Assembly: GCF_005239135.1 (NCBI RefSeq)
Contig: NZ_QKNX01000001.1
Coordinates: 496,001-560,000 of the forward strand
Origin: Natronomonas salsuginis
GTDB lineage: Archaea; Halobacteriota; Halobacteria; Halobacteriales; Haloarculaceae
Length of the DNA stretch: 64,000 nt
Direction: 5' to 3'
A model generated the notes under the pieces. It was given only the letters and a program-made list of their open reading frames with translations, did not search any database and was not told the origin of the DNA. Numbering within the stretch: position 1 is the first letter of the stretch; every line of letters starts with the position of its first letter. The translations under genes were made by a program, and so were the position numbers. This document shows, one piece after another, positions 55,629 to 60,806 of this stretch.

Positions 55629-55916
55629 ATGAAATTGGCATCCCCCACCGACTTCGACGTATTAGAGGCGCTCTCCGATGGAAAGCGGAACACGGCGGCG
55701 AACATCGCGATCGAGATCGATCGCGACCGCGCATACATCAACACCCGCTTGCCGATCCTCGCCGATCAAGGACTGCTCGAACGCATCGGTCCGGCCCCGA
55801 ACAGCGGGCTCTACGAGATCACCGAAAAAGGGAAGCTCGCGAACCGACACCGAGAGGCGTACCACGACGAACAGACGGACTTCGAGGCGCTCTTGGAATC
55901 GAAACTCGAGAACTGA
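55629..55916 (+). CDS. Winged-helix regulator (PhiH1 repressor-like)
   Basis: This encodes 95 residues. FDVLEALSDGKRNTAANIAI, DRDRAYINTRLPILADQGLLE and SGLYEITEKGKLANRHRE make up one winged helix like the MarR/PadR-type repressors and the PhiH1-type repressors seen in haloarchaea. The C-terminal tail is acidic. It lies 361 bases upstream of the surface-protein pair on the same strand, with an AT-rich gap between them, so it could regulate them; this is inference from position. Confidence 0.8.
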   Translation: MKLASPTDFDVLEALSDGKRNTAANIAIEIDRDRAYINTRLPILADQGLLERIGPAPNSGLYEITEKGKLANRHREAYHDEQTDFEALLESKLEN

Positions 55917-56277
55917 GTCGGATCGACGCACCGCCGACCGGCACCCCCCGAACGACTGTGGGTGAAGACAGCGACCTGACGACGCCTCGTGGCCTCTGTA
56001 CCGATCATTCGGGGAACGATGACACCAATTCACGTCTCGTTTCGAGAATATATACTAACAGTAGGTATTATAAGTATATACTATTACATTCGATGATGCC
56101 AGACTCGCTGCGTGAACGCTCGAAGGCTCGAGTGAGACGTGACTCAACCGCGAAAAAACGACGCCATGCCCGCGTTCGACTCCGGACCAAAAGACCCGTC
56201 GCTCCGGCCGAACCGACGTCGAATCCGAGTCCGATCGTGAAATCGGATCGCGACGATCGACGATTGGGCGGCGGTCG
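55917..56277 (+). promoter_or_regulatory. AT-rich upstream region of the surface-protein pair, no gene accepted
   Basis: The stretch 56042-56096 is markedly AT-rich and contains TATATACTA twice (near 56048 and 56083) with GGTATTATAAG between, likely promoter sequence for the surface genes. Downstream of it a very basic reading frame (Arg-rich) runs to 56281, but such composition is unlike proteins of this organism, so I do not call it. The distance from this AT block to the ATG at 56278 is about 190 bases, giving a long leader if it is the promoter. Confidence 0.4.
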
Positions 56278-59070
56278 ATGAGTCCCCCCCATCCGGGCGT
56301 TCGGATCTGCGTCCTGTTTCTCTGTTTCAGCGTGCTCGCCGTGGCCGTCCCGGTCTCTGTGCCCGCCGCCACAGCGGCAGCGGCGAACGTCGAGACGGCC
56401 GACTACGAATACGACGCCAGCGACCTCTTGATCGACGACTCCGCAACGCGGAGCGCCCGATTGACGCTCACGCCGAACGGGAACGCCGAAGAGGGCGACA
56501 CGCTCCGGATCGAACTCGACGGGGATCATCCGGGGTTCGACGTGTCGGGCGTCACCGACGCGACCGGCGACGACATCGGGATTTCGCCCGCGGCGACGAC
56601 CGACGCGATCGAGATCGAGCTCACCGATCTGCGCGGGAAAGACGCGCTCTCAGACACAAACGTTTCGGTCGACGTCGAACTCACCGCCACGGACGCCGTC
56701 GCCGGTCGTGCCGCGACGTACGATGCGACCCCGATCGCGTCGGTGACGGCCGACGAGACGAGCGGCGATCTCGTCGGCGACGCCGTCATGCGCGTCACCG
56801 TCGACGGGCGGGCCGAGATCGAATTCGACGCGGACACTATTGATCAAGATTTGATTGGGGAAAATCTGCAAACACTTGACAGCGATCAGTTTGTTTTAAC
56901 ATTTTCTGAGGATTCGGTGTTGGTGGACGACGGAGACACGATCAATCTCTCAGTCAACCCGAAAATTATTAGCGAAGGTGATGAGGATGGTCTTAGAATT
57001 GTAAATGCTGCTGAAAGATCTACTTTAGATCAAAACATAAGCAGCATCGACGTCGCCACCTCCGGCGATGCCAACGTGCTCGACGGACACGACGACCAGA
57101 TCACGATCACGGTCAACACCGTCGACGGCGAGCCGAAGCTGGTGTCGGGCGAAGCGGTCGCCGTCGGCGTCCAACTGGCCGTCGAGACCGAATCGATGAA
57201 GCGAGCTGCGGATCGCTACCGCGATGCCGACTTTCTCACCGTCGACGTCGAGGGGGAGGACAACGCCGCGTTGACGAAAAATAGCGACGTACGGACCGAA
57301 TCACCGGTCGTCTTGAACATCTATCCCGGCGAAGCGGGATCGGACGGATTCGAACTCGACGGGATCGAGTCGGGCGACGAGTTCGGCATCGGGGAGGGCC
57401 GGAGACTCTCGATCGACGGGGTCGACGACCGCTTCGGGAACGAGATTCCACGCGCGAAGGTGAATATCACGCTGAGTGGTCACGAGACGTACACGTACGA
57501 CGGGGTCTGGACGGCGACCGATGGAACGAACGGGATAGTCGTCGGTGAGGACGGAGCGCTCGACGCTCCGGTCGGTGCGTTCGATCTGTCCGTCGAGGTG
57601 ATCGACGTACCGGGGCCGGCCACGCAGTCGCGAAACACCGGCTCGGACGTCACCGAGCGCGCGTCAGGGGTCGGCGTGTATCCCGACAACGTGACGCTCG
57701 AGACGACGACGCAGTATCGCGATTTCGACGTTGACGGTGACGCCACGATCGAGGTCGAAGTCGATCTCGGCGTCTCGGACGAACGCATCGATCGGCTCGA
57801 TCTCGAACTGCGCCGCGAGGGCGGCAACGGGACCGTGCGCTTCGAGCGCGACGGCGGCGCGCCGACGGCGACCGATCCGTGGGAAGAGACCGGTTACGGG
57901 GGCGACGGACACCTCGGACAGGAGAACGCTTGGATGATCGAGCGCGATCTCACGGCGGCGGATTTCGACGGCGGCACCCGGCGGTACGTCCTCGACGCCG
58001 ACGTGGCGGACCGATACGAAATCGGCGTCGCGGTGATGCCGTCCGAGGGTCGCCTCGTGCCCGACGCATCGAAGGTGGCAACCTCGCTCTCCACCGACCC
58101 CGGCGGGGCGAATCGGGATCGGACGGAGATCGTGGCCACCGGATCGATCGACGCCGTCTCGAACGTCTCGGTGCGATCCGGTCACGAGTTCGTCGGCGTC
58201 GACGCGGACGAGGGAGCTGGCGTCCGAGTCGAGTTCGAGGGGTTCGAGGACGCGAACGGGAACGCGATAACCAACACCGACGAGGCGGTACCGGTGGGGC
58301 TTGGAAACACTGACATCGGCGATGTCAGTCCGGTCGCGGGTGAATCGTCGACCACGGTGCAGGTCGATCCGACGACGATCGACGGCGGTGCGGTCGAGAT
58401 CGGGACCGACGCCGAGGTGACAGTCGAGGTCGCCGACGGAACGCAGCGAAATCGGACGAATCTCACGCTGGTCCACCGGGCGATAGAGCGTTCCGGAGGC
58501 GCGTGGCGGACCGGATCGATCAGCCAACCCGCGACGCTGTACGTCGATGCGGAAGGGTCGCGCGATCTCGCCCAGTGGAACCCCGAAACGGGGACCTACG
58601 TCGGGATCTCGGCGAACGGCTCCTCGGATACGCTCGAATCCCACCGGATCGGACACGAACAGTTGCATCGGGGGATGTACGCGTACGCCGAATCCGGTTC
58701 GCTTCGAATCGGCTTCGAGTACGTCACAACCGCAGACGAGGCGATCGGCACCGATTCGATAGAACTCGAACCGGGATGGCACTTCGGGAGCTCGAACTAC
58801 GGTGTTTCGACGCATGCGACGCGAAGACTTGAACGCGACGCGAACTGGGTCGACGACACGTTCGGCAACGCGGACGACGCGTTCGTCATCTGGGACGAGG
58901 ACCGAACCGATCGGCTTCATGACACCACGTCGGGGATCGAAATCGACGGCGCCGACGAACCGATCGGACACGACGACGCCTACTGGATCGAGGTGGAGGA
59001 AACCGACGATCCCCTGGTCCGACGGATCGTCTCCCCGACGTACTCGAGGAGCGAGGGGGGAGACGAGTGA
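56278..59070 (+). CDS. Large secreted surface glycoprotein-like protein
   Basis: This encodes 930 residues. The signal peptide (about 1-38, cleavage near ATAAAANVETADY) leads into repeated beta domains like those of haloarchaeal BGTF-type surface proteins: D-rich strands with RIELDGDHPGF, VNITLSGHETYTYDG and DGDATIEVEVDLGVS. Many N-x-S/T sequons occur. Residues about 187-257 come from a low-G+C DNA segment and use different codons. No anchor is evident at the C-terminus, which ends in an Asp/Glu tail overlapping the next gene by four bases, so the second protein may anchor it. Function is inferred. Confidence 0.75.
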   Translation: MSPPHPGVRICVLFLCFSVLAVAVPVSVPAATAAAANVETADYEYDASDLLIDDSATRSARLTLTPNGNAEEGDTLRIELDGDHPGFDVSGVTDATGDDIGISPAATTDAIEIELTDLRGKDALSDTNVSVDVELTATDAVAGRAATYDATPIASVTADETSGDLVGDAVMRVTVDGRAEIEFDADTIDQDLIGENLQTLDSDQFVLTFSEDSVLVDDGDTINLSVNPKIISEGDEDGLRIVNAAERSTLDQNISSIDVATSGDANVLDGHDDQITITVNTVDGEPKLVSGEAVAVGVQLAVETESMKRAADRYRDADFLTVDVEGEDNAALTKNSDVRTESPVVLNIYPGEAGSDGFELDGIESGDEFGIGEGRRLSIDGVDDRFGNEIPRAKVNITLSGHETYTYDGVWTATDGTNGIVVGEDGALDAPVGAFDLSVEVIDVPGPATQSRNTGSDVTERASGVGVYPDNVTLETTTQYRDFDVDGDATIEVEVDLGVSDERIDRLDLELRREGGNGTVRFERDGGAPTATDPWEETGYGGDGHLGQENAWMIERDLTAADFDGGTRRYVLDADVADRYEIGVAVMPSEGRLVPDASKVATSLSTDPGGANRDRTEIVATGSIDAVSNVSVRSGHEFVGVDADEGAGVRVEFEGFEDANGNAITNTDEAVPVGLGNTDIGDVSPVAGESSTTVQVDPTTIDGGAVEIGTDAEVTVEVADGTQRNRTNLTLVHRAIERSGGAWRTGSISQPATLYVDAEGSRDLAQWNPETGTYVGISANGSSDTLESHRIGHEQLHRGMYAYAESGSLRIGFEYVTTADEAIGTDSIELEPGWHFGSSNYGVSTHATRRLERDANWVDDTFGNADDAFVIWDEDRTDRLHDTTSGIEIDGADEPIGHDDAYWIEVEETDDPLVRRIVSPTYSRSEGGDE
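56837..57045 (+). other. Low-G+C in-frame segment inside the surface protein gene
   Basis: By eye this stretch is about 40% G+C, against roughly 65% on both sides. It is in frame and uses codons rare elsewhere here (TTA, AGA, ATT, AAA, GAT). Encoded residues include FVLTFSEDSVLVDD and INLSVNPKIISEG. The edges are abrupt, as in a recombined or imported patch. Confidence 0.8.
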
Positions 59071-60806
59071 ATTGGACGAGCGAGTCGCGTCTGCGTCGGA
59101 AAGCCGCCGTGTTCCGGTGTCTTTTCGTGTGTCTCGTGATCGTCGCTGCGCTCGGTATCGGTGTCGCCCCCGAGGTCGTGGGAGCCAGCGGTGAGGCACC
59201 GGGAGAGCCGGCATCGTTCTTCGGCACGGCGGTCGACGAGAACGGAGACGCGCTGCCCGCCGGAAGCACAATCGTCGCCGTGGTAAACGGCGAATCGGAG
59301 GGAACGATCACCGTCGAGCCAGCCGGCGAGTACGGCGGTGAGAGAGCCTTCGACGACAAGCTGCGAATCGACAGCGCGGCCGGCGACAGAGTGACCTTCC
59401 GATTTGCCGATTCGGACGGCCCGAGCGCCGGATCGGTCGAACTGCACCCCGGCGTCTTCGAGAGGAACTTGACCTTTCCCGCGGCTACCGTCGAGTACGT
59501 CGATCCGCATGCGGTCGCGAACGCCGAACCGACGGCGGTCGCCCCGGGTGAGGAGATCGCGCTCGATGGGTCCAATTCGACGGCCTACGGAGGGGCGGGA
59601 ATCGAAACGTACCGATGGTCGATCGAGCGGGACGGCGAGGACGTCGCAACGCTCAGTGGAGAGGTGGTGTCTGGACGGTTCGACGAAAGCGGTACGTACG
59701 ACGTGAAACTTCGGGTTACTGACGGAGACGAGCGAACGAACGGGACACACACGACGTTCGACGTCGATCCGACGCTCGAAACGACAGCAGCCACCGGCGA
59801 CGGTTCGAATTCCGAGCTGGGGGGTGGTTCCGGAATCGAAGGCGACAGCGGCGGGACGACGGAGACGCAGGTGACCCCGACGCCCGAAGCGCCGAGTGCG
59901 TCGAGCGAATCGGCCTCGGCTGGTGACGGGATGACCGGCGGTGGTTCAACCGGCGGTGAAACGACTGGTGGGGAGTCGGCAGCGCGATCGAGCGGCGGGT
60001 CGACCGGAGGATCGAGCGGCGGGTCGAGCAGCGGATCCGTATCCGACGGTGGCGATCAAGAGCCGGACTCGGAGTCGATCCCAGCGCGCTCTCCCGGGGA
60101 CGAAACGAGCGGTGGATTCGAGATTCCCGACGACCCGATCACCCACGAAAGGTTCGATATCGACGACGACGCACCGAATGCGTCTGGGACCACCGTCGCC
60201 TTTGACGAGCCACCGCTCCACGAGATCGTGCTGCAAAACGGCTCGGCGAGCGGCGAGCTGTCGGTGTGGGAGTTCGACTCGCTCGCCGACGGGTCGCCGC
60301 CGCTCCCGAACGACCTTCGGATCGCTTCGGTGTCGCTGATCACCGTTCCACCGGTCCACCGGGACGATCCGGCGATCGTTCGGGCGACCGTCGATCGTGA
60401 ATGGCTGGCGGCAAACGGCCTCCGAGCGGGCGAACTGACCGTCTATCGGCTCCCCAAAAGGACGGCCGAGTGGCAACCTCTGCCGACGGAAACCACTGAG
60501 GTCGACGACGGTATCCTCGTCGAGGCCCAGACGCCGGGGTTTTCGCAGTTCGTCATCGCCGGATCGGTCGCCCCCGCACGAACCGCGACATCGGGCAAGT
60601 CGACTGAGACCTCACCCCACAAAAACACCGGTGGAGCCGATGGGAACGCGACGAGACAAGCGAACGAGAGTACACGGGAGTCAGCCGACGACAGCGCGGT
60701 TTCGATCGTTCGATCGATACCCGATCGGCCGACGGCGGCGCTCCTCGCGTTGCTCGCCGTCACCGGGCTTGTCGGCTGGATATTCGTTCCGCGCCGCCAG
60801 AGGTGA
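59067..60806 (+). CDS. Surface protein with PKD-like domain, Ser/Gly linker and membrane anchor
   Basis: This encodes 579 residues from GTG at 59067 inside the preceding stop. A signal peptide (about 1-40) is followed by a beta domain, a PKD-like domain (VAPGEEIALDGSNSTAYGGA, then the DES-GTYDVKLRVTDGD strand, about 148-230), and a Ser/Gly/Thr linker (about 245-340). Next comes a PGF-pre-PGF-like domain (about 350-500; ITVPPVHRDDPAIVRATVDR, EAQTPGFSQFVIAG), another spacer, and a C-terminal helix with RRQR. It is coupled to the large surface protein upstream, and probably both form one cell-surface complex. Confidence 0.8.
   Translation: MNWTSESRLRRKAAVFRCLFVCLVIVAALGIGVAPEVVGASGEAPGEPASFFGTAVDENGDALPAGSTIVAVVNGESEGTITVEPAGEYGGERAFDDKLRIDSAAGDRVTFRFADSDGPSAGSVELHPGVFERNLTFPAATVEYVDPHAVANAEPTAVAPGEEIALDGSNSTAYGGAGIETYRWSIERDGEDVATLSGEVVSGRFDESGTYDVKLRVTDGDERTNGTHTTFDVDPTLETTAATGDGSNSELGGGSGIEGDSGGTTETQVTPTPEAPSASSESASAGDGMTGGGSTGGETTGGESAARSSGGSTGGSSGGSSSGSVSDGGDQEPDSESIPARSPGDETSGGFEIPDDPITHERFDIDDDAPNASGTTVAFDEPPLHEIVLQNGSASGELSVWEFDSLADGSPPLPNDLRIASVSLITVPPVHRDDPAIVRATVDREWLAANGLRAGELTVYRLPKRTAEWQPLPTETTEVDDGILVEAQTPGFSQFVIAGSVAPARTATSGKSTETSPHKNTGGADGNATRQANESTRESADDSAVSIVRSIPDRPTAALLALLAVTGLVGWIFVPRRQR

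Follow-up and report, generated by a model that had tools for sequence, protein, structure and literature searches.

Surface-protein variation is already known from haloarchaea and is usually described in terms of swapped genes or islands. In Haloquadratum, a piece of ~250 bp has been recombined inside an S-layer gene (PMC4535781), and intragenic recombination has likewise been described for the S-layer genes of Haloferax (PMC5867893). In Halorubrum lacusprofundi, the S-layer stands out as the chief site of variation on a primary replicon and has low metagenome coverage, which was linked to virus pressure (PMC6011602). Quite generally, exposed structures are replaced between borders that remain conserved (PMC4033161).

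Here we describe a surface-protein gene with a patch of low GC content in a stretch of 64,000 nucleotides (the window) from Natronomonas salsuginis, a haloarchaeal genome of 2.9 Mb. The locus resembles the S-layer recombination of Haloquadratum walsbyi and Haloferax in that a short piece of a haloarchaeal surface-glycoprotein gene is concerned and the frame is kept; unlike in those cases, the piece corresponds to one predicted domain, carries a strong low-GC mark and is low in GC at the same site in several species (PMC4535781, PMC5867893). With replacement flexible genomic islands it has in common that a variable exposed structure appears to be swapped between conserved borders, but the islands replace whole gene clusters, whereas here only part of one gene is affected (PMC4033161). 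As for the strain-variable S-layer gene of Halorubrum lacusprofundi, the variable part of the surface gene would be expected to break metagenomic coverage or assembly, although in that organism the whole gene varies, with 54% identity between strains, and here a single domain (PMC6011602). A divergent middle between conserved N- and C-terminal parts is also seen in the halomucin of Haloquadratum, which diverged in place via repeats, while the present gene has no repeats and shows a compositional switch (PMC3119063). What sets this case apart is the unit, one domain, together with a low-GC mark that persists and returns at the same codons in several species.

Results

The surface-protein gene and its low-GC patch

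56278..59070, + strand: surface-protein gene of 930 codons, an uninterrupted open frame
56836..57045, + strand: low-GC patch, residues 187-256, the first part of a predicted domain, placed by composition, likelihood fit and codon usage

The hydrophobic N-terminus of the encoded protein is read as a signal peptide, suggesting secretion, and the sequence contains ten N-glycosylation sequons. No family in Pfam or NCBIfam matched it, no solved structure is related to it by sequence, and it has neither a hydrophobic C-terminus nor a match to the PGF-CTERM anchor family. Traits of S-layer proteins are thus present, namely secretion, sequons and a beta-rich domain (as judged from the N-terminus, the ten sequons and the beta-sandwich model below). 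We do not class the protein as an S-layer glycoprotein because its own C-terminal anchor, a PGF-CTERM motif with a membrane segment, is absent.

In agreement with the initial annotation, which had reported an in-frame patch of about 70 codons with sharp edges as the strongest compositional anomaly in the coding DNA, the sliding-window GC content drops to ~0.42 over positions 56850-57049, between values of 0.68 and 0.66 on either side. Residues 187-256 are encoded with a GC content of 0.395 and a GC3 of 0.357, compared with 0.694 and 0.867 in the 60 codons upstream and 0.656 and 0.85 downstream, and the frame remains open throughout. A two-boundary likelihood fit placed the limits of the patch at residues 187-254 (log-likelihood gain 25.6), with edge intervals of 180-188 on the left and 253-259 on the right. 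Only 25 of the 70 patch codons end in G or C, while 57.6 would be expected for the same amino acids under the codon usage of this gene (z = -10.6); the low GC content is therefore not an amino-acid effect. In the low-GC block, A and T are enriched to a similar degree at every codon position, with no strand-specific C-to-T signature.

The compositional background was taken from 464 kb of the host genome and 400 kb of the genome of a related species, G123. Among 378 coding-like frames in the host sample, the patch has the lowest GC content over 210 bases (0.395), followed by 0.510 for the runner-up; the minima per frame average 0.616 with a standard deviation of 0.036 (n = 378). The patch is hence confirmed as real and lies far beyond chance.

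Orthologues carry a longer low-GC block that matches a predicted domain

56815..57186, + strand: predicted beta-sandwich domain, residues 180-303, from the block model, corresponding to the low-GC block of the orthologues
57046..57186, + strand: residues 257-303, forming the second part of the domain; GC content high in the window (GC3 0.92) and low in L002, L003 and L004
56944..56952, + strand: sequon NLS at residue 223, NLS or NIS in all four orthologues
57034..57042, + strand: sequon NIS at residue 253, at the right patch edge, NIS or NIT in all four

Twenty genomes of the genus were examined, one per species; six of them, the host and five others, have the surface gene. The block comparison was restricted to L002 (genome G123), L003 (G134) and L004 (G118), the orthologues from other species in which the region is assembled; they lie at the syntenic locus and are ~50-57% identical. 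In the corresponding stretch their GC contents are 0.407, 0.429 and 0.354, respectively, and their left-edge intervals (residues 176-187, 178-188 and 171-187) overlap that of the window. The right end of the block lies at residues 302-309 in all three, compared with 254 in the window, giving a full low-GC block of ~120 codons. In G123 the block is likewise the sole outlier, with 0.400 against 0.510 for the next value in the 400 kb sampled.

A structure model of the block alone gave a beta-sandwich with strands between residues 180 and 303 (pLDDT 65.6, pTM 0.63), while a model of the N-terminal half, at a pLDDT of 47, was usable for strand positions alone. The limits of the block in the orthologues coincide with the strand extent of the model, and we therefore assign their block to one predicted domain, of which the window patch is the first part. 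A fold search with the domain model against the PDB and viral models returned nothing below E = 0.001. Across the orthologues, identity regions, block edges and synteny place a divergent core at the same position between conserved flanks. Nucleotide identity reaches its minimum in the block, and identity in the block region is 42-54%. When the sisters L002 and L003 are compared, identity is lowest in the patch, at 50%, against 62-77% elsewhere.

These data modify the initial proposal that one surface domain had been replaced by DNA from a low-GC source. A discrete domain of a secreted protein is retained, but the patch covers only the first part of its ~120 codons. The foreign-looking composition holds, as do signs of exchange (the patch is nearest to L004), whereas an import unique to this strain, as a one-off event, is contradicted by the three orthologues of other species, which have the block at 35-43% GC and with the same left edge. 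Orthologues with the same low-GC block had been named as evidence against replacement if found in unrelated high-GC strains; they were found in other high-GC species of the genus, which counts against it in part, as these organisms are related.

The window copy resembles a mosaic

Residues 257-303 of the window protein are 60-62% identical to L002 and L003 and much alike in sequence; as this part is nevertheless GC-rich in the window, it does not need the low GC content. The low-GC patch itself is 53% identical to L004, 41% to L002 and 36% to L003, while all other regions of the window protein are nearest to L002 and L003. At discriminating sites the ratio is 13:6 in the patch and 70:145 outside it (Fisher p = 0.0045), and when 70-column windows are scanned over the protein, the strongest signal coincides with the patch (scan-corrected permutation p = 0.07). 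As the set consists of four taxa with L002 and L003 as fixed sisters, a topology conflict is impossible in it, and the change of the nearest relative is therefore taken as support for exchange rather than as proof.

In two draft genomes, three contig ends lie at the block edges. One contig of G136 stops at ...GCTGAGGATATTGA, the left edge, and another starts at SAAARYH, just past the right edge; a contig of G130 starts at residue 303. Given the contig numbers, the chance of a contig end within ~430 bases is ~0.03 for G136 and 0.16 for G130. Mixed alleles in the sampled populations would give such breaks, but composition-dependent coverage could do so too.

Search for a donor, a template or a signal

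A silent cassette or second copy of the block was not found in the genome at either the DNA or the protein level. Cassette-based antigenic variation was rejected as silent donor copies are missing elsewhere in the genome, and a diversity-generating retroelement target is unlikely because no second copy resembling the variable region was found in the genome. The block had no match in viral contigs, phage records or plasmid collections, which leaves a phage origin of the patch without backing from the viral contigs and phage records. Among 394 genomes of the order and 394 of the phylum, no convincing low-GC donor with a homologous block was detected outside the genus; at the order level (394 genomes) the matches outside the genus were weak (E 0.002-0.008). 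The dinucleotide signature of the block is much closer to the low-GC haloarchaeon G156 (distance 0.068) than to the host (0.213). We rejected it as donor evidence, since a similar distance (0.083) is obtained when AT-rich synonymous codons are chosen at random. Searches for repeats at the block edges and for a bacterial-type promoter gave nothing of note, and the block had no match in Rfam.

Genomic neighbourhood

55629..55916, + strand: small winged-helix protein upstream of the surface gene, also upstream in L062 and L056, from weak, below-cutoff Pfam matches
59067..60806, + strand: partner gene of 579 codons with PKD and PGF-pre-PGF domains and a hydrophobic C-terminal segment, from family matches

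In the clade the gene order is pus10-like, (HTH), surface gene, PKD/PGF-pre-PGF gene, rnhB and cofH-like, and it is kept as far as the contigs reach; from their sequences we take the neighbours to be pus10, rnhB and cofH. The partner gene also adjoins the surface gene in other haloarchaeal families, where the C-terminal part of the surface gene has distant homologues that are likewise neighbours of the PKD gene. The interval between pus10 and rnhB is without the surface pair in nine further genomes of the genus, so that the locus seems to vary in whole-gene content too. Most of these nine (L107-L115) have a conserved response-regulator-like gene of 185 codons between pus10-like and rnhB.

Several further observations were made around the locus and elsewhere. 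Within positions 56050-56281 of the window there is an AT-rich, promoter-like stretch (~56050-56085), similar to one that immediately precedes the start codon in L062 and L058. The ~190 bases between it and the annotated start of the surface gene contain a basic open frame of 62 codons (MMPDSLRERSKARV...), whose end overlaps the surface gene in an ATGA. The surface homologues L054, L055 and L056 from other haloarchaeal families are low in GC throughout (0.51, 0.55 and 0.50, compared with surroundings of 0.65, 0.70 and 0.65). A pilin-like gene (MNLKKLFDTNDDRAVSPVIGVILMVAI...; G000:C1 4751-5140, L063) has a GC content of ~0.47 in the first 40 codons and of 0.45, with a GC3 of 0.32, in the rest; it may be common here for variable surface genes to be low in GC. 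The largest low-GC island in the 400 kb sampled spans 4.4 kb at a GC content of 0.46 (G000:C1 375211-379641, L081).

Discussion

We consider it most probable, with a probability of roughly 0.6, that the patch is part of a fast-diverging surface-glycoprotein domain (~residues 180-305) that is exchanged by recombination, with alleles from a low-GC pool. Homologous recombination would probably be anchored in the conserved, GC-rich parts of the gene that flank the domain, and the domain between them would be swapped repeatedly, the alleles coming from a low-GC pool circulating among related archaea. The window copy would then be a mosaic, in which residues 187-255 belong to a low-GC allele akin to the one in L004 and are followed, within the domain, by a GC-rich second part closest to L002 and L003. 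The exchange would likely serve to diversify the N-glycosylated surface that the cell exposes, for instance to counter the adsorption of viruses; virus-driven selection on the domain would be an extension from the literature on other haloarchaea.

For exchange speaks that the left edge is common to four species and the right edge to three, both at borders of the predicted domain. Furthermore, in the window the second part is GC-rich with its protein sequence retained and the right edge lies inside the domain, and this arrangement is therefore not the product of point mutation. Against exchange it has to be noted that no low-GC donor was found in the genomes or in the viral, phage and plasmid sets, that the switch of the nearest relative reaches p = 0.07 after scan correction, and that the contig breaks may reflect a low-GC coverage bias.

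The low GC content may stem from repeated import from a low-GC pool or from AT drift in place. In the second case, which we regard as rather unlikely but worth serious attention, a fast-diverging domain that rarely takes part in homologous exchange would escape the GC-raising forces acting on the flanks, i.e. GC-biased conversion and codon selection, and only the second part in the window would have been recombined in, from a GC-rich allele. Such drift would be consistent with low GC persisting in all readable orthologues even though synonymous sites should be saturated, with the missing donor, and with the balanced rise of A and T, as in ordinary AT drift. It does not readily account for edges that are sharp to a few codons, and the second part in the window shows that a high GC content is compatible with the same domain sequence; moreover, the GC bias of conversion in haloarchaea is not settled (PMC8223754). 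The sharp edges and the switch inside the domain thus favour exchange.

It is improbable that low GC is itself selected, for instance to slow translation, to leave the mRNA unstructured or to provide a DNA signal within the gene. Such selection would explain why the position is common to several species and why it is unique in the 400 kb samples of two genomes, but the block has the lowest nucleotide identity and hence preserves no DNA motif, Rfam and the edges provided neither a match nor repeats, and low GC is dispensable in the GC-rich second part of the window. Very improbable, too, is a single ancient import into the ancestor of the clade, followed by vertical descent with a composition not yet adjusted to the host: the block is indeed present in every orthologue with the region assembled, yet a block-region identity of 42-54% points to a divergence long enough for the codon usage to have adapted, and vertical descent explains neither the GC-rich second part nor the switch of the nearest relative. 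A retroelement or a cytosine deaminase could, through targeted hypermutation, make both variation and AT richness in a domain unlike its flanks, but this is hardly credible with A and T raised together, no strand-specific C-to-T signature and a genome without a template copy elsewhere. Assembly error or contamination, which sharp edges and nothing further would suggest, is very unlikely given the kept frame and the recurrence of the domain with this composition in three genomes that were assembled separately, one of which consists of a single contig.

A candidate surface-recognition domain in Natronomonas has been located, and as the low-GC mark of this one domain persists in several species, its gene offers a clean test of whether the low GC content of variable surface genes results from repeated import or from an escape from GC-raising forces. 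More speculatively, and on balance doubtful, a single domain may be a dedicated site of exchange or diversification that is kept low in GC in high-GC haloarchaea, the dip marking a recombination-driven or locally mutated recognition domain. If this were true, such recognition domains would be findable genome-wide by composition alone.
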